From NCBI GenBank assembly GCA_036768485.1, contig JAVLUZ010000257.1, positions 563,143 to 627,142 of the forward strand: a stretch of DNA of 64,000 nucleotides. Direction: 5' to 3'. The position numbers and the translations under genes were made by a program. This stretch comes from Mermis nigrescens (lineage: Eukaryota > Nematoda > Enoplea > Mermithida > Mermithidae). Below the pieces are notes generated by a model that saw only the letters and a program-made list of their open reading frames with translations, had not been told where the DNA came from and did not search any database. Each line of letters opens with the position of its first letter. Positions within the stretch are counted from its first letter, which is position 1. Below are positions 1 through 62,610 of the stretch, in pieces.

Positions 1-339
1 AGTATTGTGTATACAATATGAGTATTTCTGGCAAATTTATGTGTGCTCAAGGTAACTTTGTCATACTCATTATCAATTAACAAGCAACATTTCAAGCACT
101 CTGTGCAATATCATGCTTACACCCAACCAATAAGACAGATAACGCAGTGTCACAAATACAAATTTCTGTACAGATGCTTAACAGTGTGTACACGTTATGC
201 TTTACTTGCCTTATTAACTTAGGCAATAGAAACAAGGATTTTTGGATGCAATATACCCCTTTAATTGTGGCTGCATTCGGATATTTGAACATTTATATAA
301 CTTTTTTCTGACTTTTACGAGTTTTGTTTTAAATTTTAC

Positions 340-1245: not shown

Positions 1246-1249
1246 TTCC

Positions 1250-3120: not shown

Positions 3121-3124
3121 CGGC

Positions 3125-3235
3125 TCAAGCAAGGACCGGGAAGTCAAAGGACCGGGAATTCGAAGGACCGGGAAGTGACGAAGGACCGGGAATTCGAAGG
3201 GCCGGGAAGTGATGAAGGACCGGGAAGTCAAACCT
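3125..3235. repeat. Minisatellite AAGGACCGGGAAGT(CA/GA)
   Basis: Six imperfect units of about 17 bp alternating GGACCGGGAAGT and GGACCGGGAATTC. A related GGACCAGGAAGTC cluster sits just inside the right inverted repeat of the complete Polinton (41902-42030), so the minisatellite is a shared subterminal feature of the family. Confidence 0.85.
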
Positions 3236-3244
3236 ATATATACA

Positions 3245-3956
3245 CACTCCTTTTGTGCATAGGTCCACTTTAATACCTAGCGCAGCTAGGCTTACTTTAC
3301 ACTCACATCCAGTCCTTGGGCTTAGTTTTGTCTTACTTTGGCACATTTTAGATATATTTAAGACTGAGTGGCAGGGGTAGCAAGAGCGGACCCCTGCTAC
3401 ATGGTCCTTCTGCTTAGTTTTGCCATACTTTGGCACATTTAAGGCAAATTTTAGACTGAGTAGCAGTGGTAGCAAGAGCGGACCACTGCTTATAAGTATT
3501 GTAGGGAGATGCGTTGGGGGCTCCCCCTCCCCCAGGAAGTTGTAGCCATAGTTTAGCACAATAGTATGTACTTTACAACTATGCTCACTTTAATCTTAGT
3601 TTACACTAAATTCAGGTTTAGTCTAGTTTTAATCTTAGTTCGGGGTTTAGTCTTAGGTTACACTTAAGCCTAAGCTGGCACTGTGCCAATGTTGACCCTT
3701 CCACTCCTCAACTATGTCCTATCCTTAACCATTACCTATCCTTAACCATTGCCTATCTTAAACCATTGTCTATCCTTAACCATTGCTCCCTGACCCTTAT
3801 CCCAGGGAGCAAGGCTCCACCCCTCACCTATCCTTAACCATTGTATATGTTATAGCATTAGCCTATGTTATAACATAGGCTATTTTAAAGAATTGCCTAT
3901 GCTTAACCATTGCCTATGTTATAGCGTTGCCATCTAGGGAGCCAGGTATAACTACT
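3245..3956. repeat. Terminal inverted repeat of the partial Polinton
   Basis: Shares with the repeats at 32189-32879 and 42078-42760 the order of motifs: paired CAAGAGCGGACC..CTGCTA blocks, a CTTAGTTT/ACACTAA stretch, a proline-like GGCACTGTGCCAA segment, many CTTAACCATTG units, TATGTTATAACATAGG, and the terminal GGGAGCCAGGTATAACTACT. Similarity is clear at the terminus and looser inwards. Confidence 0.75.
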
Positions 3957-4111: not shown

Positions 4112-5299
4112 TCAGAGAAATAGCACTATATCGCCTGGAATATATGCGCGTTTCTCCGAAATTAGATCGGAAAACGGCAATTTAGGCGATTGCAATAACC
4201 TATTTCGATGAACTAAGTGGGTCACAAGTGGATTGTGAATATAGACAATCCCAGCTGTTTCGGAAGTTGGCAATACGGTGATACAATATGGACCCACTTG
4301 CTTAGGAGCAACTTTGCCTTGGTTTGACGGAATAACGGCTTTGTTATTCAGATAAACAATATCGTTAACCGAAAAGGTTGTTTTGGAAACATTTTTATCA
4401 TATTGTCGCTTTTCGTAATGCACGCTTTCGCTAAATTAGTGGCTGCAGCCTCATGTAGGTCACGTAGGGAGTGAACTAGGCTGGCTAAGTACGCTTCAAC
4501 TTGGTTAGGCGATTCAGGGTCAAGGGTTAAATCATTCAAGATTTGAATATCTAATGGAAAAGATGGCTCTCGACCGTAAAGTAAGACAAATGGCGATAAA
4601 TTCGTCAAGGCGAGGCGTTGCTCGATAGGCAAACAACGCAAATGGGAGATACTGTTCCCAATCATATTGGTCATGAGCACTTAGCTTTGATAAACAGTCA
4701 ATCAACGTTCAATTATAACGCTCAACTAGACCATCACATTGGGGATGGTACGGTGTTGTAAAAATTTTCTGAATATGCAAGATTTTGCATATCTCAGAGA
4801 CTAACGTTGATGTAAAATTGGATCCTTGATCTGTCAAAAAACGTCTAGGCACTCCGTGTCTAGGTATGATTTCATGAAGCAAAAGATTTGCGATCATAGT
4901 AGCTTTTATGTCCGAAACAGGAAATGCTTCTACATATTTTGTGAAATAGTCCAAGAAAACTACAACTTGGTCATTTCCAGAGATAGATTTTGGCATGTGA
5001 AGACAGTCACATGTGATGAGATCAAAAGGAGCGTTAACTTCAATCAGTTTTAGGGATACCGATGCTGGGATTGACGAAATCTTACGTTGCAGACATGTAT
5101 GACAATTTTTACACCATGCAATGACATCGTTCTCCATTCTTGGCCACCAATATCTCATCTGGATATTGGGAAAAATTTTTCGGGCTGAGAAATGAGCACC
5201 AAAAATTGAATCATGAAATTTGGATAGGATAAAACGACGTAGGGATTTAGGTATGACAAGCTGATTGATGACTTGGGGGCTACGTTTGGGTTGAAAGCG
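4112..5299 (-). pseudogene. pol: pol C-terminal part: integrase
   Basis: It begins with a zinc-binding H2C2-like segment ending CKNCHTC and MRYWWPRM (about 5160-5090). The rve catalytic core follows with its three acidic residues visible: D in LITCDCLH, D in FLTDQGSNF and E in DGLVERYN (about 5040-4710). An in-frame TGA follows VERYN at about 4707. After that the frame shifts into SPFVLLYGREPSFPLDIQ (about 4600) and shifts again near 4425 into a C-terminal domain (VNDIVYLNN, KVAPKQVGPYCI, HRNRL). The last stop is at 4112. Integrase inserts the cDNA into chromosomes; this copy is inactive. Confidence 0.88.
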
Positions 5300-8154
5300 T
5301 CAAAAAAGTAGATCTTGGCTGATGAAAAATTCATCTCGATACTTCTTCTTGGAAAGATCATCGAGGGAGTCGCGAATTTTGACGATTTCAGGATCAAGTC
5401 GTTGCTCTACCAACAGTTTAGCTGGCGTTAGCATTTCTGCTTTTTCTGCATCTGTCAGCATATTTCTTTCATAATATACCGGTGGTACATTTCTATTCGC
5501 TTTTGACGTAGTTGGTATGTCGGGCGGATTATCATCCTCTTCCGATTCGGATTTCTCGGATTCTAGATTGGCTAAGTTCACAACTGCTTTTCTTTCAGCT
5601 TTGTTTTTTTGCTCATTTTCATCATATTTGGGGTGATGCGAAAGTAAATCGGCGGCACAATTATAAGCACCGGGGACATACACAATTTTATACGTGTATT
5701 CTTGAAGCTTGAGTCCCCATCTTCGAAGACGACTAGACGGGTCTTTGAAGTTGACGAGCCATTTTAAAGCTTGGTGGTCGGTTTCAACCACAAACTCGGT
5801 ACCGTAGAGATAGTGACGATAGCATTTAATCGCCCACACAACGGCTAGAGCTTCTTTCTCTGATGTGGCGTAATTGCACTCAGCTGAATTCAAGACTCGG
5901 CTTGCATAGCTGAGTATGAAGCGATTACCCGACAGCAGATGCTTTTAGGTGAGAATCGCACCTAAAGCATAGTTGCTGGCATCAGTTGTCAAGATAAACT
6001 GATGTTTGTCGTCAAACTTTGGCAATTGTAGGATTGGCGGAGAAGTGAAAACATTCTTGATTTTTTCAAAAGCATCTTGATGCTTTTCAGTCCAAACGAA
6101 AGGTATATCTTTTCGCAATAAGTTGAAAAGTGGCTTAGCTACTTTTGCGAGATCCTTTACAAACTTTTTGAACCAATGTACAAGGCCAAGGAATTTTTGT
6201 ACACCTTTGACATTTTTGGGAGTCGGAAAAATTTGTACATCTGCAACTTTCATTGGGTCTGGCGCGATCCCAAACAAAAAAACTAATTCTATGCCCTAAA
6301 AATTGCACTTTGTTGTGGGCAAAATGGCATTTGTCAGGCTTAATGCGCAGATCTGCGTCACTTAAAGCTTTAAAAACTTTCTCTAAGTCTTGAAGATGTT
6401 CTGGAAAAGTTCGAGAAAAAACTATGATGTTGTCGATGTAAACTAGGCACTTGTTCCAGTTTTCCTGCTAGAACTAGTTGCTGAAAATCTGCTGGCGCAT
6501 TTTTGAGACCAAAAGGTAACACATTGAATTCGTAGTAACCGACGGGGCAAATGAAAGCTGCTTTCTCCTGTGATTCTTTATCTAACGGGATTTGCCAATA
6601 ACCTGATTTGAGATCTAGCGTAGAAAAATATGCTGCCGATCCGAGAGCATCGAAATAATCTTCGATTTGAGGTAACGGATACACTTGGGTCTTGGTCACT
6701 TCATTTAGGCGACGATAGTCTACAACTGGACGTAAGGAACCATCCTTTTTACCGATTAGGAATAACGGACTAGCCCATGGGCTTGTAGTTGGACGAATCA
6801 CTTTATCAGCTAGCATTTCGTTGATAACTGCTTGCATCGCTTTTTGACACGAATGTTCGACGCGATATGTTTTTCCTGTGATAGGCGGACTATCACCTGT
6901 ATCGATATGATGCTTTAGGAGTGGCGTTCGGCCTAGGGGTTCTCCTTTCAAGGCAAAAATTGAGGAGTAACGCTGGCACAGATCACGAACCTGCGGTTCC
7001 TGATGGGCATTTATTGCCGAACCATTCAAGGCTTTGTTGATCAAAGCAAGAAGTTCTGGCGCTCTATCATCCGATAGGGCGACATGAGATATGATTTCAG
7101 CTTCGGTCGTTAGAGAGCCGATGCATTCTCCGATATCGATGGTGATAGGTGATTTAGACGTATTACAGATGCAAAGTGGGAAAACAGGAACTGATGTGTC
7201 AATGATAGCTGGTGCAACGAACAGTGATTTGCTTAGCATGAAATCATTATCATATTCAAAAAGAGCTATTTCAGCATTGAATTCACCACAACAAACAAAT
7301 CCAGGCGTCACAACTTCATGACGCGGTTGAATGACAATTGATTCGGTAACAGTTACACGAGCACAAACTGGACACGCAGTTTGTGTATCAGGGTTTACGC
7401 GTAAATGCTTTTTGTCATTTGCGGATAGTAATTTGACATGAAAGCCATTGGCAAAAGCACAATCTTCGACTGTGTTGACAAAAAGTAAGGCTTGTTTGCA
7501 AAAATCGAAGCCTAGAAGCAAATCTTCCGGTAAGTCATCGATAATTAAGACAACAGCCAGAGTTGTTTGTTCTGCGACTGTGATTTGCATGATATAGGTA
7601 AAACGCACAGTTGCTGTCATTTTTCCATTTCCGTGAACAACATGCGCTGCTTGCTTCGGTGGCAATTTGAAACCTAAGCGCAGAAAAGCGCTTGTGGTCA
7701 TCATTGTAACTTGTGATCCCATGTCAATTAACGCAGGGAGCTTTACTCCGTTGATTTCCGCTAATATTGTAGGCAAATTCGTAGATGCATGGCTAACAAC
7801 GGTTTTATTAGCTGCATCCTGAGTTTTGACCTGCGAATTTAGCTTTTTGTAGACTGCTAAACGTTTCTGTAAACGATGATATTCTTCGAGAAAAGCTTGA
7901 GATGCAAAAAGCAGTTCCGAATTTTTGGTAGTCGAGACAGATGAAGTTATGACGTTTTCATTATTAGATGATGATTGGGTCGGTTGCGGTGGGGGAAACG
8001 TAATGGTGGGTGTGGAAGATACTGAATACGTAAGTGCCGGGGTTAGAACGCATAGGTTGCTGAGGAGATTGTCGATTCGCGTTATTCTGCTGGCGATAAT
8101 TCTGAGAATGTTCTGCAAAACGATTGTTAGCATACATATTTCTATCATTGTCAT
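5300..8154 (-). pseudogene. pol: pol N-terminal part: protease, reverse transcriptase, RNase H
   Basis: The protease is recognised by ALIDMGSQVTMM at about 7720, where the aspartic protease triad D-T/S-G reads D-M-G. The reverse transcriptase runs from about 6990 to 6400, with SPWASPLFLIGKKDGSLRPVVDYRRL-type fingers and FSTLDLKSGYWQIPL (catalytic D). Its active-site box at 6429-6440 reads YIDN instead of YxDD, and this box lies in a different frame from the upstream part. The connection and RNase H domain (about 6000-5600) show KEALAVVWAIKCYRHYL, TDHQALKW and ADLLSH. It is cut by an in-frame TAA near 5947, where the wording suggests CAA, and by a TGA near 5300. Protease and RT lesions together make activity impossible. 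Confidence 0.88.
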
Positions 8155-8230
8155 AGTATTGCGTATTACCGTAGGGATTACAGTACTTCAGGCGATTACC
8201 ATAATTTTGCCAAAAACCATTGCTCAGACG

Positions 8231-10250
8231 TCAAAAATCTTGACGGGAGTTGTAATTTTGAGACGTAGATGGATACTGTGAGTTTTGAAACACACAAGAA
8301 TTATGCGGAGTACAGTAGTTCGAACGCAACGATGATGGGTTGTTTTGAAACATTGGCCTGGATTGGCTACGATATTGATTTGTATACTCACTGGAATTGT
8401 GAGTTTCGCTGTTGCAATAATTTCGGTTGTTCTTTTGCTGATGCCAAAAACATTCATCTCTGGTGTGGCCCATGTGTTTGCAATACACGCAATATCGTAG
8501 TGCTAAAGCATTAGATGTCCCTGGACGCGATTGACGAAAAGACATAGATTGACGGGGGTCTCATTTTGACTATACGATGAACGACAAAAATTATTTTTTG
8601 GCAACACGCTACTGGATGCTGCAGCGGCTGTTGCTGGTAAATACGGCGTAGGCTGCTTAGCTGAAGCATACTGTAGGTTCGCAAACTCTATGCAACGCGC
8701 AGCATGAAGAAAATCTTGAAGCGGTGCTTCAGGCGTTCTTTTGTAAGCTTTTCTCGTGATATCTGGATTCATCCCTTTTCTGAGCTGATGACGGAGCATT
8801 TTCTCAAAAGCTATCGAATCAACCTGAATTTCTGGTTGAGCTCAAATGAGATCTTTGCGTAATGCCAAAAAGTAAGCGTTCACAGACTCCAATGGGTGCT
8901 GTTTTCGCTCAAGAAATCTATCAAACAATGTATCTGAGTCGATAGGACAAAATTCTGCAATTAATGCTTGTTTCGTGAGTTCATAAGATTTGCGAACGTC
9001 GTTGGGTAGGGAGCGAAACAATCTAGTTGTATAGGTATCGAAAAAAGATGGCAACACATCTAAACACAATCTTTCATCACTTCTATAGCCATTTGCTAAT
9101 CGCTCAAGTTTGTGAAAAAATCCACGAATATCTGTTTTTTCACCTTGAAAAACTTCTTATTGGCTATCGTGAACTGAATTTGTTGCAAAAATGGACCTCT
9201 GTTCATAGAATTGGCTAGGTAGCAAATACCTGTATTCTCTGAGCTATCAGATGACGTGTCATGGTGACGACGTCGTGAATGTTTTGAAGAAGATCTATGA
9301 CACCTGGGACTTCCCGGCGGAGAGTCAGTAGCTTGATCCGGATAGTGAACTCTTCGGTTCTGCTGATTCTGAGGCGGAATCTGATCCATTGGGATCAATG
9401 CACCTGTATTTGGCACAAAAATTTGATTCTGCAGAATATGCATCACATGAAGTGGCGGTAATTCAGCATTTACGGGATTAGCTTGGTTCGCTGCCGGCGG
9501 AACGGCTGGTGAAACAATCTGTACTCGCGGAGACAGTTCAACATTTGCAAAACGAGCTAAATGTTGCTGTTCAGCGTTTACAGAGACAGTAGGACGCGAT
9601 AAACGCGATACGATTTGCTGATTAGGACGCACTGAGGCTGACAAATGACAGACGGGCGTTGACGTTGCAAGCTGCATGCGCAAATCCGAGTCAGCATTTG
9701 CAAAGCGAGCTAAATGCTGCTGGTCCGCGTTTGCAGTGACGTTGGGAACCGGTTGTGGCTCAACAGGCTGCAAATCATGGTTTGCAGAGTTTGAATTTTT
9801 GCATTGTGCATGCACATGTTCAACGGCTATACGTTCAAGACGATTTTCTAAATCTTGCATATGCGCAAACATCACATTCAAAAGATTATCTGAATTGCGA
9901 TTTTCAGTTATCCGATTCACATTTGTGTCGGAAACTGATTGTTGCGGATTAGGAATCGTCATTTCATTCAAAATTTGGTGAAGAGTGATATTGTCGTCAT
10001 TTGCAACTTGATTACTTTGCGGAGAGTCAACACTGTTGTCCTGATTTTGGACACCTAGCGTTTGATTTGTATTCACAATGCTGTCTGCGCTTGCACAATT
10101 TTGTGCACTAGCGCTATGATCGGAATCTGAGTCATTTGACACACTTCTAGATGATTTCGGAGTACTAGCCTGCTTAGGCGACTTATCTGGGGTTTTCCTC
10201 CCCGTTTTGATCATTTTTTCTGCTAGTTTCTTGCCTGGCATGACAGACAA
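8231..10250 (-). pseudogene. gag: gag of the Ty3/gypsy element, broken
   Basis: The frame opens at ATG 10248-10250 with a basic, Ser/Pro/Gln-rich N-terminal domain (to about 9110). It then shifts frame into a capsid-like segment (about 9110-8600, LPSFFDTYTTRLFRSLP, then a region rich in charged helices) that is cut by an in-frame TGA after DLI at about 8842. A third frame carries one CCHC zinc knuckle, CVYCKHMGHTRDEC (about 8440-8490), the nucleocapsid signature that binds the packaged RNA. Gag forms the intracellular particle in which reverse transcription occurs. At least two frameshifts and one nonsense codon make this a pseudogene. The gag/pol boundary cannot be set precisely. Confidence 0.8.
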
Positions 10251-10304
10251 ATGAGATTAAGATCAGGACAATAAATTTTTGTCACAACCCCAATCTCGAA
10301 TAAG

Positions 10305-11782: not shown

Positions 11783-12654
11783 GGATCTGTAACACTACGG
11801 TCAGGGCACATTTTTAGCATAATTAGCAATATTGCTACCTATGTATAATATAATTGACCACCTTTTTTCTTATATGTTTATCACAGCGAGTGCGAATTTT
11901 CTGTCCCCCCTCACAGCAACAACGGCACACACCTGGGAGGTGCGCTTTTTTTAAACGATAGATAATTAAAAAACTCGATGTACTATTTTTTACTATTGTT
12001 AACACTGAATACTGACTTAGCAATGAGTGTGTAAAGTGCAAACCAAAAAATCAAAGAATTTGCGGAGGGACAATTCTTTTTCTAAGGTTCCCCGAGCTGT
12101 AGATTACGAATCTGACCATAAAATTTCTTTACACTGAATAGTTGTTGTACAAAAATGTAAAGTATACTGGTTTTTTCCCCTTTGCTTGTTTTCAGCTAAT
12201 CTAAATCAATTTTGGTTTCAGTGCAGTCCGATTGGTTTTATAATGTAGAGGGTTACAATATCTCAAGGACCAATTTTTTTATTCTATTTTAACGCAATAT
12301 TTCACGATCCGTGATCGTTTTAGTGTAAAGAGTTCGAGACGAAAATTGATATTTTTTCAGCTACTACGCTAAATAGGCGCAACACGCTAATTATGCTTAA
12401 AATGTGCCCTGACCACACCACACCTGGGCGTGGGGGGTTTTGGGGGTATGCACTCCCCCCGAGAAACCAAAATACCCCCCCCATTTTTTGGTACCAATGG
12501 ATAGTGCTCGATGAGAAACGTCGAAAAATGGTGTTTTTTCGCCATGCCACCATTTTTAAGGCCATTTTTTGACCTTAAAAAAATCTTGCATCCTCCCCCC
12601 AGAATTTTCTTGCTGCCCACATATGGCCCTGATCTTAGCGTTACAGATCCTAGT
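11783..12654. repeat. Foldback unit 1 of a triplicated repeat, interrupted by an M1 element
   Basis: The left end TAGGATCTGTAACACTACG plus GGGCACATTTTTAGCATAAT recurs inverted at the right end (ATTATGCTTAAAATGTGCCC, then TTAGCGTTACAGATCCTA after the M1 insertion at 12414-12625). The interior motifs GATTACGAATCTG, GTGTAAAGTATAC and CAGTCCGATTGGTTTTAT recur twice further right. Confidence 0.75.
12414..12625 (+). mobile_element. M1 short hAT-like element (MITE)
   Basis: Starts CACACCACACCTGGGCGTGG and ends GCTGCCCACATATG. Flanked by GCCCTGAC (12406-12413) and GCCCTGAT (12626-12633), a 7/8 target duplication. The uninterrupted paralogous site at about 13100-13112 reads GTGCCCTGACGTTAGCG, showing the empty site. 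G-runs lie near the left end and C-runs near the right. Confidence 0.85.
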
Positions 12655-21122: not shown

Positions 21123-21329
21123 ACCTTAATAACGTCTTCACTGTCGCTTAAATCGTATTCTGGTAATTGAACCTCTCGCAGTGGATCATATAAAATGTCG
21201 GCTCCACTGAAAAGTTGTTCAGATACGTGTCCAACTTATGCGAATTATGCTTTTTAAAAAAAAGAAGGGTCTACGTGCCAGTCTTTAGGTGCATCACTTT
21301 AACCACTCTAGCGTGCGTAGAGATATTAT

Positions 21330-22124
21330 GCAGCAAAACTTTGGACAATCATGTTCCAATGGACGTGGTTTATATTGATTTTTGTAAGGTATTCGATTCT
21401 GTTGTTCATTCAAAACTAATATTGAAATTAGAATCTTCAGGTATCTCGGGTATTTTGCTCAACTGGGTTAAAGCTTTTTTGATGGGTAGGTCACAAAAGG
21501 TGAAAATAAATGGTTTTCTTTCAGCCCCTATTCCGGTAATTAGTGGTGTTCCACAAGGTAGTGTGCTAGGGCCTACATTATTTTTGGTTTTCATTCACGA
21601 CCTGGTCGATAGTATCAAGCATAGTAATATCATGCTGTTTGCTGATGATTTGAAAATATTTAATTTTTCACGTGTATTCATATCCTTGCAAGCAGACCTT
21701 GATTCATTGCATGGGTGGACCGAAAAATGGCAACTGCAAATAACTTATGACAAATGTTCAACCTTGTATTTGGGATATGGCAACCCTAAAAACATCTATA
21801 ACCTTTTCTTAAAAGATCTAGCTGATGCAGAAGCTTCTATCAAGGATTTAGGAGTTTTTGTTAGTAATGACCTGTCCTCTAGCATTCGTTGTGTGAATAT
21901 TTGCATTTGACCTAGTACCTAATAGGGGCACTAGGTCAAATAACGACATAAAGTTGTATATTAGAAAATCTCATTTGGATTGTAGAAAGAACGATTTTGC
22001 AAACAGGGTGGCTAGAATTTGGAATACATTGCCACAATGTATTGCTGACTGCAGAAATTTTAAACAGTTCAGGGTTTTGGTTTCAAAGCTTAATTTATTA
22101 GAATTTCTTAAGGGGCGTATGTAA
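21330..22124 (+). pseudogene. Non-LTR reverse transcriptase, C-terminal part
   Basis: RT motifs are visible in order: VYIDFCKVFDSVVHSKLI (motif A region, catalytic D), ISGVPQGSVLGPTLFLVFIHDL (motif B), LFADDLKIF at about 21640 (motif C, the F-A-D-D box), LDSLHGWTEKWQLQITYDKC and LGVFVSNDLS. The frame stops at 21910. The usual element C-terminus continues in the region after it (NDFANRVARIWNTLPQCI to about 22124), apparently after an internal deletion. The upstream endonuclease and the fingers of the RT are missing. It would copy its own RNA at a nicked target, but this copy is dead. Confidence 0.85.
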
Positions 22125-29396: not shown

Positions 29397-29943
29397 CATA
29401 CATGTAACAGGGGGATGGGGGATCCTCCACCCGAAGTCGGCTGTCCCCCCAAGCCAGAAAATCGTTGACCCCCCTCCCCCTATTTTTGGGGAAAAAATTG
29501 ATTTTTTGGCCATTTTTACGTGGCTTTTTAGCATTTTTGGGCAAAAGTTGAAAGTCACCTACCCCCCCCCCTAAAAATGGCCGGGGACCATACATGGGCA
29601 GCAACGAAATTCTGGGTGGTCGCTGGGGCAAAATCGCCAAAAATAGCTCTAAAAATGGCTAAAAATAGCATTCTGGGGGTAGTGATCGACCGGAGATCCG
29701 GCTCCGGCCTCCGGTAAATCCGGCCATTTTTCTCGCTCCGGTGCTCCGGCCGGAGCGACCTCAAAAATTGGCCGGAGCCGGAGAATTTTTCTTGATTAGT
29801 AATTAAACATATTCGTACCAGGTCTTTATTATCGTTACTAAATGTATTCAGAAGATAGCTCACAAGAAGATAAAACGACTATAATCAAATTAAAGTTTTG
29901 TGACAGTTATTTTTAAGAGTGGCTCGGCGTCTCCTACGATCAT

Positions 29944-32131: not shown

Positions 32132-32188
32132 CGCACATGTAACAGGGGGATGGGGGATCCCCCTACCCAAAGTCAACAGGGGGATGAG

Positions 32189-32879
32189 AGTAGTTATGCC
32201 TGGCTCCCTGGATCTAATGATGAAGCATTTCACAATGGTTAAGAATAGGTGGAGGGGGAGGAGTTTGCGCCCTGAGGTATGGGTGAGGGCACAACAGTTA
32301 AGAATAGGAAACGTTATAACATACACAATGGTTAAGAATAGGCAATGATAAAGTATAGACAACGCTAAAACATGTGTAAACAATAGTTGAGGATTGTAAG
32401 CTAAGCCTAAACTAAGCTAAGGAGTGTAAGCTAAGCCTAACTACGCCTAAACAAAGCATAATGTTATAAGATACACAGTGGTTAATAGTGGATGAGTGGA
32501 AGGGGTAAAAGTTGGAACGGTGCCAGCTAGGCTCACGTGGTCCTGGTTTTGGCTCAGACACGCCGGCGCCCCTGGGGGAGTCCCACCCCCACCCTACGTC
32601 CGCTCTTGCTACCCCAGTCTTAAATACGCCTGTAAACATGTTTGGACGTGTAGCAGGGGTCCGCTCTTGCTACCCCTGCTACTCAGTATGTTGAACTAAG
32701 CCCAAGTTTAAAGTAAGCCTAGACTAAGCTAAGCCTAAGTGTAAATAATTCACTTCATGGCCCTATAGCCAAGCATATACCCGATCTGCTGGAAGGAGGG
32801 GAGTCCCACCCCCACCCCCACCCCAGCCTAGCCATGAACCCAAGCAGTGTGCACAAAAGTCAGACATTTATTTCTTATC
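32189..32879. repeat. Left terminal inverted repeat of the Polinton
   Basis: Matches 42078-42760 in inverse orientation over its whole length with modest divergence. Contains GGTTAAGAATAGG units, AAGCTAAGCCTAA units and paired GTCCGCTCTTGCTACCCC blocks. Confidence 0.95.
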
Positions 32880-32925
32880 TTTTTTTATATTTCTTATATT
32901 TTATTTATTTAGGAAATTTGAGCAT

Positions 32926-32966
32926 GTGTGGGTGCGCGTGTGTGTATGTGTGTGTGTGTGTGTGCT
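32926..32966. repeat. (GT)n microsatellite
   Basis: Near-perfect GT dinucleotide run just inside the left inverted repeat. Confidence 0.9.
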
Positions 32967-33027
32967 TACCTTATACGCAAATGTCAGAACTGAAAATGAC
33001 TTCTTACATAGACAAATTTAGCAAGTT

Positions 33028-33385
33028 GGAAAAAAAGTGTGCAGAGTTTGGAAAAAAGTGTGCAAAGTTTGGAAAAAGTGTGCAGAGTTTGGAAAAAGTG
33101 TGCAGAGTTAGTGTGCAGAGTTTGGAAAAAGTGTGCAGAGTTTGGAAAAAAGTGTGCAGAGTTTCGAACATTTTTCATGTGTTATAACATAGGAAGTTTG
33201 CAGAGTTTGGGAAAAAGTGTGCAGAGTTTGGAAAAAAGTGTGCAGAGTTTGGAAAAAAGTGTGCAGAGTTTGGAAAAAAGTGTACAGAGTTTGGAAAAAA
33301 GTGTGCGAGTTTGGAAAAAAGTGTGCAGAGTTTGGAAAAAGCGTGCAGAGTTTCGAAAAAAGTGTGCAGTGTCTTGAAAAAAGCT
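33028..33385. repeat. Polinton tandem array, unit GTGTGCAGAGTTTGGAAAAA
   Basis: About 17 units of 17-21 bp, the reverse complement of the array at 1250-1636, interrupted at about 33172-33200 by CATGTGTTATAACATAGGAAG. The same interruption occurs in both arrays of the partial Polinton. Confidence 0.95.
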
Positions 33386-33391
33386 ATGATT

Positions 33392-34051
33392 TTGAGTATT
33401 AAAATATGTTTTTGGGATCATTTAATTGTCAGCTTCGCTTGGCGTGGACACAGGTGCATAATGCGGACCTGGTGGCTCCCTGTAGTGGTAATTAGACCAA
33501 CCTGCAAGAGTTTTTGGGTAAAATTGTGTTTCTTGAAATTGACCCGCTTGGCGCACTTAGCCCACTCCCTTCTTGTATTACGTAAAAGATACCCAACCCA
33601 TGTACCTTTGTACGAATAGGAACACAGTTAAACATTGAAAAAAGGACTCACCTCCTGAAATATAATTAAGATGAAAAACAACCCACCTCCTGAAATAAAT
33701 AAGATTATATCAAATAAAACATGACACCTCCTGAAATAAATATGATTAATAAGTAAGAAAAGAGCAGCCACTTACGGGGCTGGATTTTCATTATTTTTTA
33801 TTTGCCGAGTTTTCTTTTTTCTTGACACCACCAACATGCGCTAAAAGTGAAAAAAACAAAAACGCTAAATAAAAAAAATACATTAAATACGATTTTACCC
33901 TAAAGCCGAAGGCATAAAAATGCTTAAATGAAAAACAAAAAAGTCCAAAGGAATGCTTAAATGGAAAAAACATGAAATACAAATAAAAAGCCCAAAGGCA
34001 AAAAGAAAATGCTTAACAAGAAAAGGAAAATGAAAAAAAAACGCAAAAAAA
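33392..34051. other. Polinton interior between array and polB stop
   Basis: On the minus strand, TTTCAGGAGGTG recurs three times (about 33645-33735), each resembling an acceptor-GAG-donor cassette. A stop-free stretch of about 65 codons lies at 33440-33630. No protein family was recognised. Confidence 0.35.
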
Positions 34052-35685
34052 TTAATAACCATATGGCAACATGACGAAATTAGGGCAAATTACGCGTTTG
34101 TCATAAACCATTTTATAATCTTTTTTACAAGTTTTGGTAACAACATTACGTTCGTGATCGTGCAAAATTCGTTTCTCAATGATAGTTTTCACAAAACAAT
34201 TGTCATTCGAACAATACTCAAAAACCATTTGTCACAAAATTTCGAAATTAACAGATTTTTTATTTTGGAAATTGAGGCTGATGCCTCGTACTTTGTTGAT
34301 CTCATCAACAATGTGACCGGTCGCATTGGCTACCCTGTAGCCGTAATTTTTCGGACCGCCAGCAACAAATTCGTCAATATAAGCGCCATCTCCATAGCTT
34401 TTGAGCTCGTTCGTCATCTCGCCTAGGTAGCAGCCAGTAGGCACGTGGTACGTATCGCCGGGTGTTGTCAAATAAATGATAGAGTCTGAAAATAATAATA
34501 AAACATCAAATTGGCGGACAAAACTCTCTGACGTCACAATATGCATATTTTAAGTATGACCCCTCAACACACATAATAATAAACATGCTATGAAGACTGA
34601 CCAGTGTTCATGTAGAGGACGCGCTCGTCGAGCTTCTCAAGGTAGGAATAGAGCTTGAGGCGCGCTTGCGCCATGACGAAGCTCGCGATGACTGGGTTGG
34701 TGTTCTTCAAAGGCTGGAGGAATTCGTCCTCCAGCTTGTACGTGACACAGGCGAGCGATTTGCCAAAAAATCGGATGCATCCTATTGCGTTTCGGTCGCT
34801 GAAGACGCAACTGTTGAAGGCTTCTGGGGTCTTGAAATTTTCCGTGTCCGAGAGGTTGTTTCATTGACCAAACTGGAAAAGCATGCAATGCATCGAAATA
34901 GCAAACAAGGAAAAGCGATTCAAAACAGATATGTTAATTAAATAAATTGATTCCAAATAAAAGGAGAGCACATATTATAATTCATCAAATTGAAACAAAA
35001 AAAACGAGAGCATATATTATTTTAAGAAATTTTAAATGTAGGGTCTAAGATAAATTGGAAATATGCAAATTCATTAAATTGAAGCAAAAAACGAGAGCAT
35101 ATATTATTTTAAAAGATAAATTGACGAAACATGCATAAATTCTCACTTAATATGTTAATCAAATAAATCGATTCCAAATAAAATGAGAGCAGGAATATCA
35201 TTGATTAAGTAAAATGCGAGCACATGATAATGACAGCATGTATTAAGATAAAAATTGACAAAAAAATATTCTCACTTTGCCCCAGAAGCTGTTCAGCATC
35301 AGCTTGGCAAGGGCGCGCATGCCAGGGTTGCATTCAATTTTGGTCGGATCGAGTTTGATACCTTCGACAGTATCGTAGTTTTGGACATACTGGAGCTTCT
35401 GCTCGTTGGTGGTAGCCATGGTCGGGTAGCCGTCAGCTTGCTGCTTCAGGCGAAGGAACGTGTTGATATACTGGGCGAAAAGTCCACCACTTTTTGTCTC
35501 TGGATCGTACTGATCCGTTTCAGGATAATGCCACACTTTGTGCAGCTCGACAACCTGAATCAATAATGCAAAAAAATTATAATTTTCGAGGAATTAAATA
35601 CTCTAAATACGTTTATATACATATACTTAATTAATGCAGAGGACTATAATTTTACAATTTTAATATAACAATAATTTTTGACAAC

Positions 35686-35688
35686 AAC

Positions 35689-35747
<59 letters not shown>

Positions 35748-35749
35748 GG
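35686..35749. repeat. (AAT)n microsatellite in a polB intron
   Basis: About 20 AAT units in the intron between exons 8 and 9. Confidence 0.95.
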
Positions 35750-37557
35750 AATTGAATAGATTAAACTCTAACTAAGCTTATACACATAAATTTAATACAT
35801 GCAGCAGGCCATTGGTGAAAAATTTTCGGAATATAATTAATTATGATACATAGAAATAATTCTCACTTTGTATCCCATATCCATTGCTTTGTAGAGCTCA
35901 AGGGTGACCCAGCACCCCTCGAGTTGCCGCTGCTCGTCAGTGTGATTGCAATGGTCAATCTGCTCAATTGCACAGGTGCGGCACAATGGGAACAGTAGCT
36001 TGTCGTTGGCTCGCAGGGGCAGCACCGGGTGGAAGAGGTGCTTGGGCAGCAAGACGGTGCACTTGATGATGCCTGTGTATGATCGATTGGCCAAATCTTC
36101 AAAGTTTTTGGTGATGATGGTCGGGTGGCCTAATGGGAAAACGCCCATTTTGCACACCCATGGGTAGAGCGAGCAAACGTCGACATAGTCGATTCGCTCG
36201 CCATCTTGGCACTTGTGGTAAAGCCTGATGGCGTTGGTTCGGCCACCGTAGAACGTGTCTCGGGGTCCGATTGGCTCGCAAATCACCGTTTGATCGAAAA
36301 AGGCCTTCATCTCAGCACACTGAAATTTCAAAAACAACACAAAGATTATATTATTTATTTATTTATTTATTTATCTATTCATTCATTTTTAAGCAAGAAC
36401 GATTCATAAAAGTGAATATATACACAAAATATGGGTACCCCCTCCAGTGGACTAAAAACACCCACCTCTTTGAGCTTGCGTCGCAAGTCACACTCCCACT
36501 TTTTGACGACAGTGTAGCCGAGGGATCAAAGATGAGCTGTTCGGGCAAGCGTCTGCTGGTACGATTTGTCAGCGGTTTGGTTCTGGTCGAGCGTGACATC
36601 TGTTCGCTTTGGGATGCATCGGGGACAGCTGTGCCACCTAAAAAAATCAATAATACATCAGTACATGCAAATTAAACGCGTGAAAGCTGAAATGAAAAAA
36701 TATTATTAGCATATGCACAATACACTTGCTATATTTTCTAGAAATTCGACTCACCAGCAGCCATGAAATTTGTAGAACGTTTGCTGGTACAGGCTGTCAA
36801 CGTGATAGGCGCCAATTTTGACTTTGCCGCCGTTGAGTTTGTGTCTGATTGGGATTCCTTCGGAGACAGCAAGCCACTTGAGCCATTTCAGCCCGATGAT
36901 CGACTGCTTCTCCTTGTTACGATAGCCGCCTTGAGGAATGATGCCAATGGCATTGTCGGTGAGGAAGTTCTGCCTGAACACGTAGTTGCAGGCTGCGGCG
37001 ATAGTCAGGCTCGTGAGGAAAGGGTCGATGCCAGTTTCGGTTAGGAAGATGTCGCAGAACTTGAGGGCACATTTGGCGAGTATGTGAACATTGCTTTCAC
37101 AATACGTTAGTAGCTCGTGCCGTAAATCAAATTCCTTGCCAGATTCCTGCTTGTGGGCATACCTGGAATATTTTGAGAACAAATAAATTTTATGTAATGC
37201 AAAAATAAACCTGAAATCACAAAAGTTATTTAGCATAAAAGAGCATGCAGGGGTGATCCCACCACCTCCTCTGGCCAAGAACGGATTTATTAAGAATTAG
37301 TGACTCACCATTGCAAGAAATCGGCTCGGGCTTCTTCCTTCATACCATCGGGGTTGTAAAATTTGGCGTTGGGAATTGGACCCTTGTAGTCAAAATTGGT
37401 GCGGGTGTTGAACAGGTGGGGGAAGTAGCCCTTCTTCAGCTCCTGTTCATTGAACGTTTTTGGGAATGCGCTGAGCGCCATTGGTAGAAAATTGAGCGTA
37501 TCGATGACGCGAACGCTGGCGGCTTCCAACATGATTATTTCGAGCCCTGAATCATAG

Positions 37558-37560
37558 TAT

Positions 37561-37600
<40 letters not shown>

Positions 37601-37658
37601 TGTATTAATTTATTTATTTATTTAATTATTTGTTTATTTATTTATTTATTTAATTAAT
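37558..37658. repeat. (ATTT)n-rich intron of polB
   Basis: Runs of TTTA/ATTT tetranucleotides in the intron between exons 4 and 5; similar runs occur at 36350-36380 and 38690-38950. Confidence 0.9.
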
Positions 37659-40600
37659 CTCTTGAATGAATTCATTGAAAAATCAGATATGCATAAATCA
37701 GTTGATTCTTAAGTATCAAAAATACATTATTCATTCACCTCTTAAATAAATTGATTGAATAATTAGATATTTCAGTAATAAAAATATATGGTAAAGATGC
37801 ACAGAATAAACATTAATTAAGCTAATATTACCTTTGGTGACCACTTTGGGCACAATGGTCCATTGCTCGTGGAGGTACTCGAGCAAAAACTGGGCGTCGA
37901 AGCTCCTGGCGTTGTGAGTGAGGGCCATTGCGCCTCTGTTCTTTGGAGAACAACCATTCCCCAAATTTGTGGAGAATGTTGTCCCCAAGGAACGTGTGGC
38001 GGTTTGCGCCGCCACACTGGACACAAGACCCAAGCTCATTGTTGCGGCAATGGCCGCAAAGACGATAGGCTACGCAGCAATTGGGCACATGTTTAAGGAC
38101 GGGCCCATCGTCCGTTTGGCACAATTCCTGATCTTGCTGCGTTTCAAAGTCGGAAAAGATGAAAATGGGCTTTTGCTTCTGTTTCCTATCGTCGGATGTC
38201 GTGTTAATGGCCTAAAATCACCCAGCATATAAGAATATGTAAAAGCAAAATATTCACTATTTATTTTTAAATATTGGGTAATAATGACAAAATTTTGTAA
38301 CTGCATAAAAATATGAGGCTAAGATTATTTGAACCACACCAATTCCTATGCATACAACTTTAAAAATATATATCCTAATCAATCAAAGAAAAACCCAAAA
38401 CCCCATGCATGAATAAACAAATTTGCTCACCCTTATGTAACACTGATGAGTGCGGGCATCATCTTTGATGCCACAAGTTTTGCAATATGTCTCGTAGCAT
38501 CGATGCTCCTTCTTATGAGCCGTTTGAATGAGGCCAGAGCATGTATGGCATCTCTTAAGATGGCTGCAAACCAAGGCGATTTGTTGAATCTTGCCATTAA
38601 GATTGAGCGATTGACCAACCTTATGGTTCTCAAAACAGGAGTGACTCAGCATCCGCCTGAATAATGTATACATTAGCAACGAATCTTATCATTTATTAAT
38701 TTATTTAATTAATTAATTAATTAATTTATTTTATTTTATTTTGTATTTAATATTTAATCCTTCAAATATATGCAGATTTTATTTATCTTATGTATTTCTC
38801 ATTTTTTATTTGATATTTATTTATTTTATTTATTATTATTTTATTTAATATTTAATTCTTAAAATATATATGCAAAATTTATTTATTTTTTTTGCTTTTG
38901 CTATCTATTTATTTGATTTATTGCTATTTATTCATTTATTTGTTTGATTCTTAAAATGTATATGCATATAATATGGGCATGTAGAATCAAGAGCACGTGA
39001 GGTTTGGGGGTATGCAACCCCAGTTTCATTGTTTTGAAAATCTTTTGGGTTTTTGAAGCCAAATGATAGAGTTTGACATGAAACGTTCAAAAATTATGTT
39101 TTTTCACAATACCACCTCCTTATGCCCAAAAATTCGACTTTTAAAAATTATGCACCCCCAGAACTTTGAAATTGTCCACCTAGGAGCGTACCTGTTACAC
39201 TGATCACAATAGAAGTCACCTCTTTCTATGGGGCAAGGCTCCTTGGCGTTGCACGCATGGCATCCGCCGCGGCTGCAATGGTGGTCCTCCTCCTTGCTGT
39301 AGCCCTTTTCACATTTGTCGCAATAGTAGCTTCGACCAACAAACGCCGGCATGCGAGTGATGACATCGTAGTGTCGGTCGTGTAGGTAAAGGTGCAGCAT
39401 CTGATCAGCAGGCGGCCCCTTGTAAATGAGAGCATTGAAGTGCTCCTTTGAATAAATTTTGAGCTGGCAGGTGGGCGTGAGGAGCTGCTAGATCTGCTTG
39501 GCTTCCTCAACGCCACATTCGCTGGCAAAATCCTCCAAACCGGCATTGTGCATCAGCTGCTGGGCAAGATGTCTCTGAACTTTTTTACCATTTTGATCGC
39601 CCAAACAAATCGTGTTCCATTGGGGGTGCTTCTCAATACGGGCTCGTGCGACAACAACAGCCCTCACGAGACAAATTGTCATCATTGTTTATCTGGAAAA
39701 TTAGTGAAATTAAATAAACCCCTCATTATTTTTTAAAAAATTCATATAGATAATTTTTCATATATGATTGGCTATATTCTAAATTATACATTCCTTCTGA
39801 TTACATGGAAAAATTAGATAAAAATCGATTTTTATTTGTTTCATACTTTTTGGCATGATTACTCTCTAATTTCAATTAAAAGCCCATTTTTTCATCATTA
39901 TTAAGCCAAAAATTTTATGTAGCCCTTGCAATACACAAATTGTCATCATTGATTATCTGGAAATGATTTAAATTACTGATTATTAATAAAAGCCTCACTT
40001 CTCTGATATGTATTTAGATATACACTATATTATACATTCCTTCTGATACACACGGAAAAATTGGAAAAAAACCAGTTTATATTTGTTTTGGCATAATTAT
40101 TTTCTAGTTTCTGATAAAATATATTAAGATGAACACGTTTATCACTATTAAGTCGGAAAAATGTATTCAAAGATTTTTATGAGATTATACTAATATATGA
40201 AAATTAGCAGAGTAAGCCTAGATATAATGGTAATATTTTTCACATACTCAAGTATTCAATTAACTTGATTAAATACGAATTACATATTTTTCTACAATAA
40301 ATTAGGGACACAAACAATATTCAAATGATTATGTTCTTTTTATCAATTTTGGATCAAATAATCTGAATTTTTCTTATCACTGGTATTGATTAAAAACCTT
40401 TAAATGATTTTTAAACACACTATTTTTAGAAAACTAAAATTTGAACAACTAATAAGACCACATAATAAACATTTATATAGAAATATCAAAGTATGAGCAG
40501 ACCTCATTATTATTTAAATATTTTTTCTTATCACTGAATAAAATCTACAAATTGATTACCATTTCTAAGTATTTTTAGCAGAAATGACTATTTTACATCT

Positions 40601-41445
40601 TGAATGACAACCCAAAATGCAAAATATAATATTTGTCTTCTCAAAATCAATTTAATGATAAAAATTCCAAGCTTTTTCCTCAACCCGCATTCCCCTTCTT
40701 TTTTTGCAAAAAATTTTAGTCATTGTCACTCACTCACCTGGAGGAAGCATCCTCCATGGCCACAGTGTTTCTTGAACCACTGGTTCCAATTGACGATTCG
40801 AGTGTTGGCATGCTCGTAGCGGGTTCTGCCTCCTCCACCACGCGGCGACTCGACAATAACTATCTTCATCGTCATCTGCTCATGGAACGCAAATGCTCGT
40901 TTCGACTGCTGAACCTTTTCAATGACGTTCAAAACACGGTCGGCGTTCATCGCTTCCACTTTGGTAAATGGCACCAGAATGCGGGTGTCGAGGCTGACGT
41001 GCTGGATCTCAACTCCAACACGGTCGCTGGGGTCGCGATTCGCAAGGACCGTCGAAAGAATACTATTTATAATCGCTGGGATCAACGGTCGGGTAATCTC
41101 TGCAATATGGTTGAACCGGATGTTGTAGCCAACCACTTCGGCGTTAAATCTTTTGACCCTTAGACAAGACTCCTCACCAATATCGTAAAATTCGCCAATG
41201 GGACGGTTGCCGCCGCCAATCTGGCATTCGTCAAAATCGCTGCTAAATATCGTATCCCAAAATTCAGGCAATCCAAAGTCGCGGGATGCTGCTCGGGTAA
41301 GTCGTAGGCTCAAAAACGCATTGAAAATAAACGTCGTTATTTGGCTGTCGTTGCGCCACAAGCCACTATCAATCAATAGCTGCAACGAATCAATGTTAAT
41401 CTCTGGTGCTGATAACATCTGCGAGCCATCTTCAATAGTAGTAGC

Positions 41446-41685
41446 CATACGTGGGCAGCAAGAAAATTCTGGGGGGTGCAAGATTTTTTTGAAGGTCGAA
41501 AAATGGCCTTAAAAATGGTGGTATGGCGATAAAAACACCATTTTTCGACGTTTCTCATCAAGCACTATCCATTGGCATCAAAAAATTGCGGAAAAAACGA
41601 AAAAAATTTTCAAAAATAGAATTCTGGGGGGGGGGTATTTTGGTTTCTGGGGGTGCATACCCCCAAACCCCCACGCCCAGGTGTG
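41446..41685 (-). mobile_element. M1 element inserted in polB exon 1 (nest level 6)
   Basis: Ends CATACGTGGGCAGCAAG and CGCCCAGGTGTG. Exact 8-bp duplication GTAGTAGC at 41438-41445 and 41686-41693. Removal of 248 bp restores an uninterrupted frame in that part of the exon. Similar to the M1 copy at 55422-55692 through most of its length. Confidence 0.95.
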
Positions 41686-41901
41686 GTAGTAGCCCACAAT
41701 TCAGGCGTAATCAGCTGCTCACGCTGGGCAGCATCATAGGCAATTATATGATTCCATATTACAGTAATGAGGCGCTGGTTGGCGACCCATATTTGTGAAT
41801 CAATAATGCGCTTGAGCGCATCAAACGACACAGCCATCATAGAAAAAAAATTTTCCAATAGAAGTGGGGCCCCACAAGTCCATCAAATTTATAGTCACAA
41901 A

Positions 41902-42030
41902 GGACCAGGAAGTGACTTCCTGGTTCTTCGACTTCCTGGTCCTTTGACTTCCTGGTCCTTCCCCAAACATGGTTAAATAAAGGACCAGGAAGTCGTCCAA
42001 TATATCAATCAGTGTGAAGGGCCAGGAAGT
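41902..42030. repeat. GGACCAGGAAGTC cluster, partly inverted
   Basis: Copies of AAAGGACCAGGAAGT and its inverse ACTTCCTGGTCCTTT are interleaved just inside the right inverted repeat, as in the partial Polinton at 3125-3235. Confidence 0.9.
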
Positions 42031-42077
42031 TGTAGGTTTAGCTTAGCGAGAATAACAGGGGACTTATCTGAAATGCA

Positions 42078-42760
42078 TAAGAAATAAATGTCTGACTTTT
42101 GTGCACACTGCTTGGGTTCATGGCTAGGCTGGGGTGGGGGTGGGACTCCCCTCCTTCCAGCAGATCGGGTATATGCTTGGCTATAGGGCCATGAAGTGAA
42201 TTATTTACACTTAGGCTTAGCTTAGTCTAGGCTTACTTTAAACTTCGTCTTAGTTCAACATACTGAGTAGCAGGGGTAGCAAGAGCGGACCCCTGCTACA
42301 CGTCCAATTATGTTTACAGACGTATTTAAGACTGGGGTAGCAAGAGCGGACGTAGGATGGGGGTGGGACTCCCCCAGGGATGCTGGCATGTCTGAGCCAA
42401 AACCAGGACCACGTGAACCTAGCTGGCACCGTTCCAACTTTTACCCCTTCCACTCCTCCACTATTAACCACTGTGTATCTTATAACATTAGTGCTTTGTT
42501 TAGTCTTAGTTAGGCTTAGCTTACACTCCTTAGCTTAGTTTAGGCTTAGCTTACAATCCTCAACTATTGTTTACACATGTTTTAGCGTTGTCTATACTTT
42601 ATCATTGCCTATTCTTAACCATTGTGTATGTTATAACGTTGCCTATTCTTAACTGTTGCGCCCTCACCCATACCTCAGGGCACAAACTCCTCCCCCTCCG
42701 CCTATTCTTAACCATTGTATATGCTTCATCATTAGATCCAGGGAGCCAGGCATAACTACT
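42078..42760. repeat. Right terminal inverted repeat of the Polinton
   Basis: Inverse of 32189-32879. Ends GGGAGCCAGGCATAACTACT. Confidence 0.95.
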
Positions 42761-43270
42761 GATGAGGGATCCCCCTACCCAAAGTCGGCTGTCCCCCCAT
42801 CCCCCTAAAGCCAGAAAATTTTTGACCCCCCGATTTTCGGTAAAACACTGGATTTTTTGGCCATTTTTATGTGATTTTTTAGCATTTTTGGGCAAAAATT
42901 GGAAGTCACTTAAACCCCCCCCCTAAAAAGTAGCCGGGGACCCCCTCCCAAAATTTTGAGCCGTCAGATCTCTGCATTAGGCACACACTAATAGGTGTTA
43001 ACATGATTGTGCACTATGCACTTAGTCATACTAATTCAGTTCCTAAGAATGTTCGATTAACATATGGGATTTCTCCGGTTCCTGCTCCGGCTCCGGCCGG
43101 AGCAACATGGACAAATCCGGCTCCTCCGGATCTCCGGCTCCGGCCATTTTGGCCGCTCCGGTCGATCACTATCTGGGGGGGTCCGCCAGATCCTAGGGGA
43201 ATCCAGCCAGACCCCCACGCCCATGTGTGCCGGGGTCCCCCTCCCAAAATTTGGAGCCATTACATCTCTG

Positions 43271-49496: not shown

Positions 49497-49988
49497 ATGC
49501 GTCCGCTATTCACAACAACACGTTTTATTAAGAAACTGACAATCCAACGATTTGAGTCCAGAAAAACTGAATTGGAGACCCAGGTAAAACGTTTCAAAAT
49601 TCAATGCCTGATTGACTCTGGCAAGTTGAACGCTAGAACCCTGATCGAAACCTTTGAAACTGATGTTTTGAAGAAACAATGGACCGATCAGGATCGAATG
49701 AAATTTTGGCGTAATTTGAGCTCAAAACAGCCGTTAATCGTTGAATTGTCGAAGCAACGTTCATGGGTACGCACCAAGGTGGCGGAAATTGTTGGGAATT
49801 TGTACGACAAACTTTCGGGCGAAATCCACCTGCATACAATTAAGCCGGACCGACAGCTCCTGCTTAATAAGGATCAATTATCGGACGACGAACTGACAGT
49901 GTTGTCTAACATTGGACTACTGATGCCTTTGAAAATTATCGTTATACCGGTCAGCAAAAAAGAAATTCAGGACGGCGAAGGTGATTGA
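49497..49988 (+). CDS. Unrecognised 163-codon ORF, possible gene or terminal exon
   Basis: Opens at ATG 49497, directly after an in-frame TAA, and ends TGA at 49986-49988. Base composition is distinctly more balanced than the flanks, and the product reads like a real soluble protein. Residues 11-35 (KKLTIQRFESRKTELETQ) suggest a basic coiled coil; the middle is mixed charged (KQWTDQDRMKFWRNLSS); the end (SDDELTVLSNIGLLMPLKI) is followed by an acidic tail. No family was recognised. A possible acceptor (ttttattaag) at about 49531 is in phase 0 with the frame, so it could be the last exon of a larger gene, perhaps the coiled-coil gene at 26.6-28.0 kb. It could also be a domesticated or viral fragment; I cannot decide. 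Confidence 0.5.
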   Translation: MRPLFTTTRFIKKLTIQRFESRKTELETQVKRFKIQCLIDSGKLNARTLIETFETDVLKKQWTDQDRMKFWRNLSSKQPLIVELSKQRSWVRTKVAEIVGNLYDKLSGEIHLHTIKPDRQLLLNKDQLSDDELTVLSNIGLLMPLKIIVIPVSKKEIQDGEGD

Positions 49989-50408: not shown

Positions 50409-50665
50409 CAGAGGTGGGCAGCATCAAAGTTCTGGAGGGTGCGAAAATTTTTAAAAGTCAAATTTTTGTCCTCAAAAACGATGCTATGGCGGAAAAAACA
50501 CCATTTTTGAACGTATCTCGCCAAGCTCTATCGATTTGCATCAGAAAACCCTTAAAAAGCTTAAAAAATGAAATTCTGGGGGGGGTACTGTCGGAAATTT
50601 GCCATTTCTTGTCGGGTATTTTGTCTTCTGGGGGTGCATACCCCTAACCCCCACGTCCAGGTATG
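50409..50665 (-). mobile_element. M1 element with exact 8-bp duplication
   Basis: Starts CAGAGGTGGGCAGC and ends CACGTCCAGGTATG. Exact duplication TACCGAAA at 50401-50408 and 50666-50673. Confidence 0.94.
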
Positions 50666-51380: not shown

Positions 51381-51652
51381 CATACCTGGGCGTGGGGGAG
51401 GGGGTTTGGGGGTGTACACCCCCTCCCCCGAGAAGGCAAAATACCCAACAAGAAATGGCAAATTTTGGACTATACCCCCCAGAATTTTATTTTTTTAAAA
51501 TTTTTTGCTTTTTTGATGCCAATCGATAGAGCTCAACAAGATACATTAAAAAATGATGTTTTTTTCGCCATAGCACCATTTTTAAGGCCAAAAATTTGAC
51601 TTTTAAAAATTTTCGCACCCCTTCCCCCAGAATCTTGGTGCTGCCCAGGTAT
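51381..51652 (+). mobile_element. M1 element
   Basis: Starts CATACCTGGGCGTGGGGG and ends GGTGCTGCCCAGGTAT. The interior matches the other M1 copies. The target duplication is not clean because the flanks are G-rich (AAGGGGGGAC / AAGGGGCGGAC). Confidence 0.8.
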
Positions 51653-55421: not shown

Positions 55422-55692
55422 CACACCTGGGCGTGGGGGGGGTTTGGGGGGTATGCACCCCCCCAGAAACCAAAATACCCCTTCCCCCAGAAATCAAAAT
55501 ACCCCCCCCCAGAATTCAATTTTTGAAAATTTTTTTCGTCTTTTTCGCAATTTTTTGATGCCAATGGATAGTGCTTGATGAGAAACGTCGAAAAATGGTG
55601 TTTTTATCGCCATACCACCATTTTTAAGGCCATTTTTCGACCTTCAAAAAAATCTTGCACCCCCCCTAGAATTTTCTTGCTGCACACGTATG
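55422..55692 (+). mobile_element. M1 element with exact 8-bp duplication
   Basis: Starts CACACCTGGGCGTGGGG and ends CTGCACACGTATG. Exact duplication GTTGGGTT at 55414-55421 and 55693-55700. Confidence 0.95.
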
Positions 55693-55728
55693 GTTGGGTT
55701 GTTGTCGGGCCCCGACTTTTCATCTCTA

Positions 55729-62264: not shown

Positions 62265-62610
62265 CATACATGCACACTGGGGGGTATGGGGGTATCCTCC
62301 TACCACAATTTATCCAAGGCATCATGCATGTAACAGGGGGGATGGGGGATCCCCCCACCCGAAATCGGCTGTCCCCCTATCCCCCCCAAAGCCAGAAATT
62401 TTTGACTCCCCCCCCCCGATTTTTAGGAAAAAATTTGATTTTTTTGGCCATTTTTACGTGATTTTTTTGCATTTTTGGGCAAAAATTGGAAGTCATTAAC
62501 CCCCCCCTAAAAATGGCCGGGGACCCCCCTCCCAAAATTTTGAGCTGTTACATGTATGCAAGGCATACCCGCTCAGAGCGATTTTGGACCAAAAACCGAA
62601 CGTTTGAACT
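62265..62610 (+). mobile_element. M7 repeat, split by an M2 element
   Basis: CATACATGCACACTGGGGGG to CAAGGCAT, then after the M2 insertion ACCCGCTCAGAGCGATTTTGG. The order is proven by the uninterrupted inverse copy at 61366-61457. Confidence 0.8.
62323..62558 (+). mobile_element. M2 element with exact 8-bp duplication
   Basis: Ends CATGCATGTAACAGGGGGG and GAGCTGTTACATGTATG. Exact duplication CAAGGCAT at 62315-62322 and 62559-62566. Intact reference copy for the family. Confidence 0.95.

Follow-up and report, generated by a model that had tools for sequence, protein, structure and literature searches.

The 64,000-nucleotide stretch of Mermis nigrescens DNA analysed here (the window) contains, at positions 32189-42760, an element of 10,572 bp in which the only recognizable gene, on the minus strand, is that of a family B DNA polymerase (polB). 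Polintons/Mavericks are usually about 15-20 kb long and have genes for a retroviral-like integrase, an ATPase, a protease and a capsid protein. The locus raises the question of whether an element below this size range, with a polymerase gene interrupted by introns, belongs to the Polinton/Maverick lineage, and how it could have come to carry polB alone.

Termini and insertion of the element

The structures that delimit the element, and a related terminus elsewhere in the window, are listed below.

32183-32188, no strand: left 6-bp target duplication, GATGAG (see empty sites)
32189-32878, plus: left terminal inverted repeat (TIR), 690 bp, starting AGTAGT
33009-33425, plus: minisatellite of ~21-bp units, with a second copy at 1206-1655 in the second element
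42077-42760, minus: right TIR, 684 bp, terminating ACTACT
42761-42766, no strand: right 6-bp target duplication, GATGAG (see empty sites)
1-3956 (visible part), minus: diverged second element of this type, with its terminus at 3956 and crossing the window start

An earlier note on this DNA had described AG...CT ends, inverted repeats of 0.69 kb and an exact GATGAG duplication, and all three were recovered: the ends lie at 32189 and 42760, both copies of the duplication are present, and the TIRs were aligned by blastn (96.1% identity, 691 columns) as well as globally (683 aligned columns with 19 mismatches and three gap events). The DNA flanking the element is part of a dispersed repeat, and two paralogous copies of this flanking repeat, at 62332-62568 (84%) and 29406-29589 (81%), represent empty sites. 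The insertion is supported because these copies are uninterrupted across the insertion point, and we conclude that the termini are genuine and that the element is a real insertion. Long TIRs with AG...CT ends and a 6-bp target site duplication are characteristic of Polintons/Mavericks; for vertebrate Mavericks, excerpts of one study give the end motif (AGT)2//(ACT)2 together with 6-bp duplications (PMC8097293).

The terminus at 3956 was 75-77% identical over 145 columns and is accompanied by similar subterminal repeats and, further in, by the shared minisatellite. No polB was found in the approximately 4 kb of this second element that are visible when the polB of five relatives was searched for.

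The termini also bear on the notion that the element is autonomous with polB alone and does not need an integrase. It would explain why polB alone is recognizable, and we nevertheless regard it as very improbable. To our knowledge, no polymerase creates a 6-bp duplication and an end motif of this kind. Both are instead typical of integrase-bearing Mavericks, as far as the available part of the vertebrate study describes them (PMC8097293).

A polymerase gene split by introns

Pfam DNA_pol_B_2 matched four separate exon ORFs in the order of the profile, one with 58.1 bits (cut-off 25.8) and three just under the cut-off (25.1, 25.5 and 17.2 bits); the ORF enclosing exon 8 matched at E 9.7e-16. 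When proteins were searched with the motif A exon, 135 of 196 candidates had E <= 1e-3, and all 120 of them that were listed carry PF03175. The named sources among the matches listed are sea urchins, sea cucumbers, oysters, insects, a fish, a tardigrade, Caenorhabditis remanei and two bacterial metagenome bins. Six full-length relatives were colinear with the element, exon after exon, as far as 34055, with relative P0007 aligned from 41190 on and P0008 from 39739 on. Judged by this homology, the Polinton type extends along the polymerase, its N- and C-terminal parts included, and the gene is broken in this copy. In other searches, the exonuclease exon gave zero protein matches, two polymerase pieces searched against PDB gave none at E <= 0.1 in one case and nothing better than E 0.26 in the other, eight pieces searched against NCBIfam gave two weak matches only (E 0.11 and 0.67), and six scans of viral contigs (with two alignments, a terminus pattern, P0008, P0002 and an internal repeat pattern) detected no relative. 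The layout of the gene, in the direction of transcription, is as follows.

41691-41837, minus: probable coding start, 31% similar to the beginning of the piece beyond the repeat
41445-41687, minus: inserted dispersed repeat that interrupts the N-terminal coding sequence and is bordered by a 9-bp direct repeat
40738-41442, minus: exon 1, main part, its second half resembling the N-terminal region of relatives
39693-40737, minus: intron 1; a local duplication gives an alternative possible acceptor at 39956
39192-39692, minus: exon 2, Cys/His-rich, with premature TAG at 39490 and a frame difference near its start
38657-39191, minus: intron 2, phase 2, containing a piece of the dispersed repeat
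38431-38656, minus: exon 3, Cys/His-rich
38212-38430, minus: intron 3, phase 0
37832-38211, minus: exon 4, 3'-5' exonuclease motifs, with a frame change near 37940
37547-37831, minus: intron 4, phase 1
37309-37546, minus: exon 5, by homology
37163-37308, minus: intron 5, phase 2
36755-37162, minus: exon 6, by homology
36638-36754, minus: intron 6, phase 2, at a site read through by P0001 and P0002
36466-36637, minus: exon 7, with premature TGA at 36528
36320-36465, minus: intron 7, phase 0
35867-36319, minus: exon 8 (P0004), polymerase motif A, Pfam DNA_pol_B_2
35555-35866, minus: intron 8, phase 0
35276-35554, minus: exon 9, polymerase motif B
34873-35275, minus: intron 9, phase 0
34602-34872, minus: exon 10, with premature TGA at 34863
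34486-34601, minus: intron 10, phase 1, within motif C
34052-34485, minus: exon 11, C-terminal, with premature TGA at 34234 and homology to ~34055

Together with the 147-nt piece upstream (41691-41837), the 4067 nt of exons make up about 1405 codons. The 11-exon, 1405-codon polymerase of the earlier note was therefore about right in length and in having ten introns; its reading frame is broken. The N-terminal part (41691-41837 and 40738-41442) comprises two diverged copies of a unit of ~48 aa (31% identical, E ~2e-5), for which no match was obtained among 123 relatives, bar one at E 0.51. The repeat of ~0.2-0.3 kb at 41445-41687 is dispersed in the window, with further copies at 55422-55693, 12417-12627, 51381-51652 and 50414-50665; the copies are 67-96% identical to that at 41445-41687, and related sequence is found in intron 2 of the polymerase gene.

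Several features indicate that the interruptions of the homology are introns. GT...AG was present at all ten homology joints, and in shuffled introns, allowed ±6 nt around the chosen joint, it arose with a frequency of 0.001-0.049 per intron. As the joints had been picked at GT/AG, multiplying these frequencies gives no more than an indication. With the frame of each exon taken separately, nine introns were in phase, the exception being intron 1, where a frame difference occurs at the acceptor (~39690) inside the local duplication. The GC content was 49% in exons and 24% in introns. These features support the assignment of ten spliceosomal-type introns to polB, and of the ten in-phase introns claimed earlier, all stand with their GT...AG borders and all except intron 1 with their phase. 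A suspected additional frame change where exon 4 begins was dropped, intron 3 being in phase. Mobile introns of the introner type were likewise dropped: the introns are mutually unlike, except for internal repeats and the repeat piece in intron 2.

Random insertions or pseudogene decay could in principle have produced such interruptions, all the more as this copy is decayed and as gene predictors read insertions in dead Mavericks as introns, according to excerpts of the vertebrate study (PMC8097293). Set against this are the GT...AG borders at ten of ten joints, the phase kept in nine of ten cases and the difference in GC content between exons (49%) and introns (24%), in view of which we consider decay the least credible of all explanations. 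Nor are the interruptions general in the family: there are relatives with hardly any break, such as one of 1291 aa on a contig of 4383 bp and another of 1384 aa on a contig of 4516 bp.

In the available part of the vertebrate study, intact Mavericks are described as free of introns, a finding stated there to be consistent with Kapitonov and Jurka 2006 (PMC8097293), and a survey of protists relied on the absence of introns in endogenous viruses (PMC10120064). The lack of introns in intact vertebrate Mavericks fits a virus-like life. With its ten introns the element departs from them in this respect, and an intron-split polB is unusual for a kind of element that is normally described as intronless.

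The most similar matches to exon 6 were P0002 (66% over 93 aa) and P0001 (58% over 138 aa), two metagenome relatives. In the exon 6 tree, in which 118 of the 123 relatives passed the coverage filter and which had 135 columns, few for the number of rows, the element grouped with P0002 (SH-aLRT 82) and these two with P0001 (92), neither grouping being starred; in the motif A tree (120 relatives) no starred set included the element. The departure of P0002 from homology lies no more than about one codon from intron 7, that of P0001 at a site where the element has no intron; both departures may be introns as well. As both relatives are without one intron of the element, introns seem to turn over within this clade. 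Ten polB introns, of which two close relatives lack at least one, would mean that a Polinton clade has been a nuclear passenger for long enough to gain introns.

The same relatives help to judge whether an intron-bearing polB, of the host or of foreign origin, was taken up by a Polinton-derived non-autonomous element and came to lie between its ends. Introns are common in host genes and rare in Polinton-type elements, which would suit a capture. We consider it improbable, however, given that the polymerase resembles the Polinton type over its length, both terminal parts included, and that its closest kin, P0001 and P0002, have homology breaks of their own.

Decay of the copy and its age

In comparison with full-length relatives, premature stops were found at ~39490 (TAG) and at 36528, 34863 and 34234 (all three TGA), and the frame is altered in two places, near 37940, between two exonuclease motifs, and at ~39690, at the acceptor of intron 1. 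The repeat of ~240 bp inserted in the N-terminal part is 96% identical to 55484-55693 over 211 columns. The apparent end of the gene at 34232 is due to a premature stop, as conserved C-terminal residues continue to ~34055. Recoding of TGA and TAG was rejected, the relatives having unlike residues opposite the stops. On the evidence of its sequence, this copy is a dead pseudogene. The assertion that it had been maintained as a nuclear gene accordingly fails for the copy itself and could at most be upheld for its source.

Motif C of the element reads NTDS. DTDS was found in 98 of the 120 relatives, none of these 98 having NTDS, and the remaining 22 were unmatched by the pattern for either form. 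A change of this kind in motif C is tolerated in other active polymerases, as noted in the accessible portion of PMC11071308; it need not inactivate the enzyme, and we did not retain the idea that the polymerase is dead on account of motif C alone.

On the assumption that the TIRs were identical at insertion, each has diverged by ~1.4% since then. This divergence predicts 2.1 ± 1.4 stops in the 1342 codons examined, and four were observed (Poisson chance of at least four, ~0.17); a count of five (chance 0.046) is too high by one, an artefact that stems from the frame taken at the acceptor of intron 1. Since the number of stops is roughly what ageing after insertion predicts, polB may still have been intact at the time of insertion.

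Possible reduction to a polymerase, and its origin

Pfam scans covered every ORF of at least 60 aa within the element that overlaps exons by less than 30%, 26 in total, and no integrase, ATPase, protease or capsid match came up, though decayed or very divergent remnants could escape such scans. The result leaves polB as the only recognizable gene; it sets the element, as does its length, apart from Polintons/Mavericks of ~15-20 kb with a retroviral-like integrase, ATPase, protease and capsid. One match among these ORFs exceeded the cut-off, to the coiled-coil family DASH_Spc19 on a frame of the minisatellite, and was taken as a repeat artefact. As a control, the integrase core (rve) was detected in the Gypsy-like ORF at 4712-5299 of the window. 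Scans of the 64-kb window for tRNAs and Rfam families were empty.

We give an even chance to the explanation that this is a decayed copy of the Polinton/Maverick lineage, reduced to termini and a family B polymerase of the protein-primed type, whose source was mobilized in trans. The source element would have been replicated by its own PolB, expressed from a spliced nuclear mRNA, with the long inverted repeats acting as replication origins, and would have been inserted by a Polinton-type integrase provided in trans by fuller relatives. In this scheme we infer replication by the element's own PolB, help in trans and a source with polB only, and protein-primed replication from the TIRs and insertion by a Polinton integrase are presumed by analogy with the family. 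The end motif, the duplication, the empty sites, the colinearity of PolB, the introns with their low GC content, the lack of another recognizable gene, a stop count that fits decay since insertion and the second terminus speak in favour of this explanation. Against it stand the single copy seen in full, which may have undergone a later deletion, the lack of a polB match in the visible 4 kb of the second element and NTDS in motif C, and an integrase-bearing helper that shares these termini was not found.

Next to it in probability stands a real, if less probable, competitor, a full-size Polinton with an intron-bearing polB, whose block of integrase and capsid genes was removed by an internal deletion, either in this copy or in the one it directly derives from. 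Degradation is common in such elements, 96% of vertebrate Maverick loci being degraded in the account given by excerpts of PMC8097293. This copy is decayed itself, and an internal deletion would preserve termini and duplication just as they are seen. On the other hand, remnants of other genes were lacking in all 26 leftover ORFs, and the space outside gene and repeats is limited to ~1.2 kb plus 0.24 kb.

Whatever the origin, the core of the earlier description is supported: termini, duplication and empty sites, together with homology and intron structure, point to a Polinton-type element that has polB as its one recognizable gene, split by introns of the spliceosomal type. Going beyond the reduced copy, we tentatively suggest that a Polinton lineage without virions or an integrase of its own became an intron-rich, polymerase-only nuclear transposon that uses the integrase of relatives and whose introns turn over. 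If polB-only copies form a family, replication would be separated from integration and packaging, and mobilization in trans of a self-replicating element would become testable.

With the Polintons/Mavericks (adintoviruses) of animals the element shares the type of PolB, the inverted repeats, the AGTAGT...ACTACT ends and the 6-bp duplication; it differs in its size (~10.6 kb rather than 15-20 kb), in having no recognizable integrase, ATPase, protease or capsid, and in its ten polB introns. Linear mitochondrial and cytoplasmic plasmids are small, with inverted repeats and PolB, and are extrachromosomal, whereas the element is an insertion flanked by a target duplication, with introns of the spliceosomal type. 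The PolB of these plasmids is protein-primed, and its relation is treated in PMC11071308. Polinton-derived family B2 polymerases of Entamoeba histolytica likewise occur in a genome in which other Polinton genes were not found; the available text of that report mentions neither inverted repeats nor introns (PMC3511435), and the element described here retains ends and target duplication. In the literature, judged mostly by titles and abstracts and with Repbase and most subscription papers aside, we found no description of an intron-bearing or polB-only integrated Polinton, and the term 'non-autonomous polinton' had zero matches.

Other features of the window include an ORF of 163 aa at 49497-49985 (plus strand), of ordinary composition and with no Pfam match. 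The coding region of a Gypsy-like LTR retrotransposon occupies 4115-10256 on the minus strand, with Pfam matches to aspartyl protease, reverse transcriptase, RNase H and integrase core. At 21194-21907 on the plus strand lies a fragment of a reverse transcriptase (Pfam RVT_1), which by its look we take to be of the non-LTR kind.
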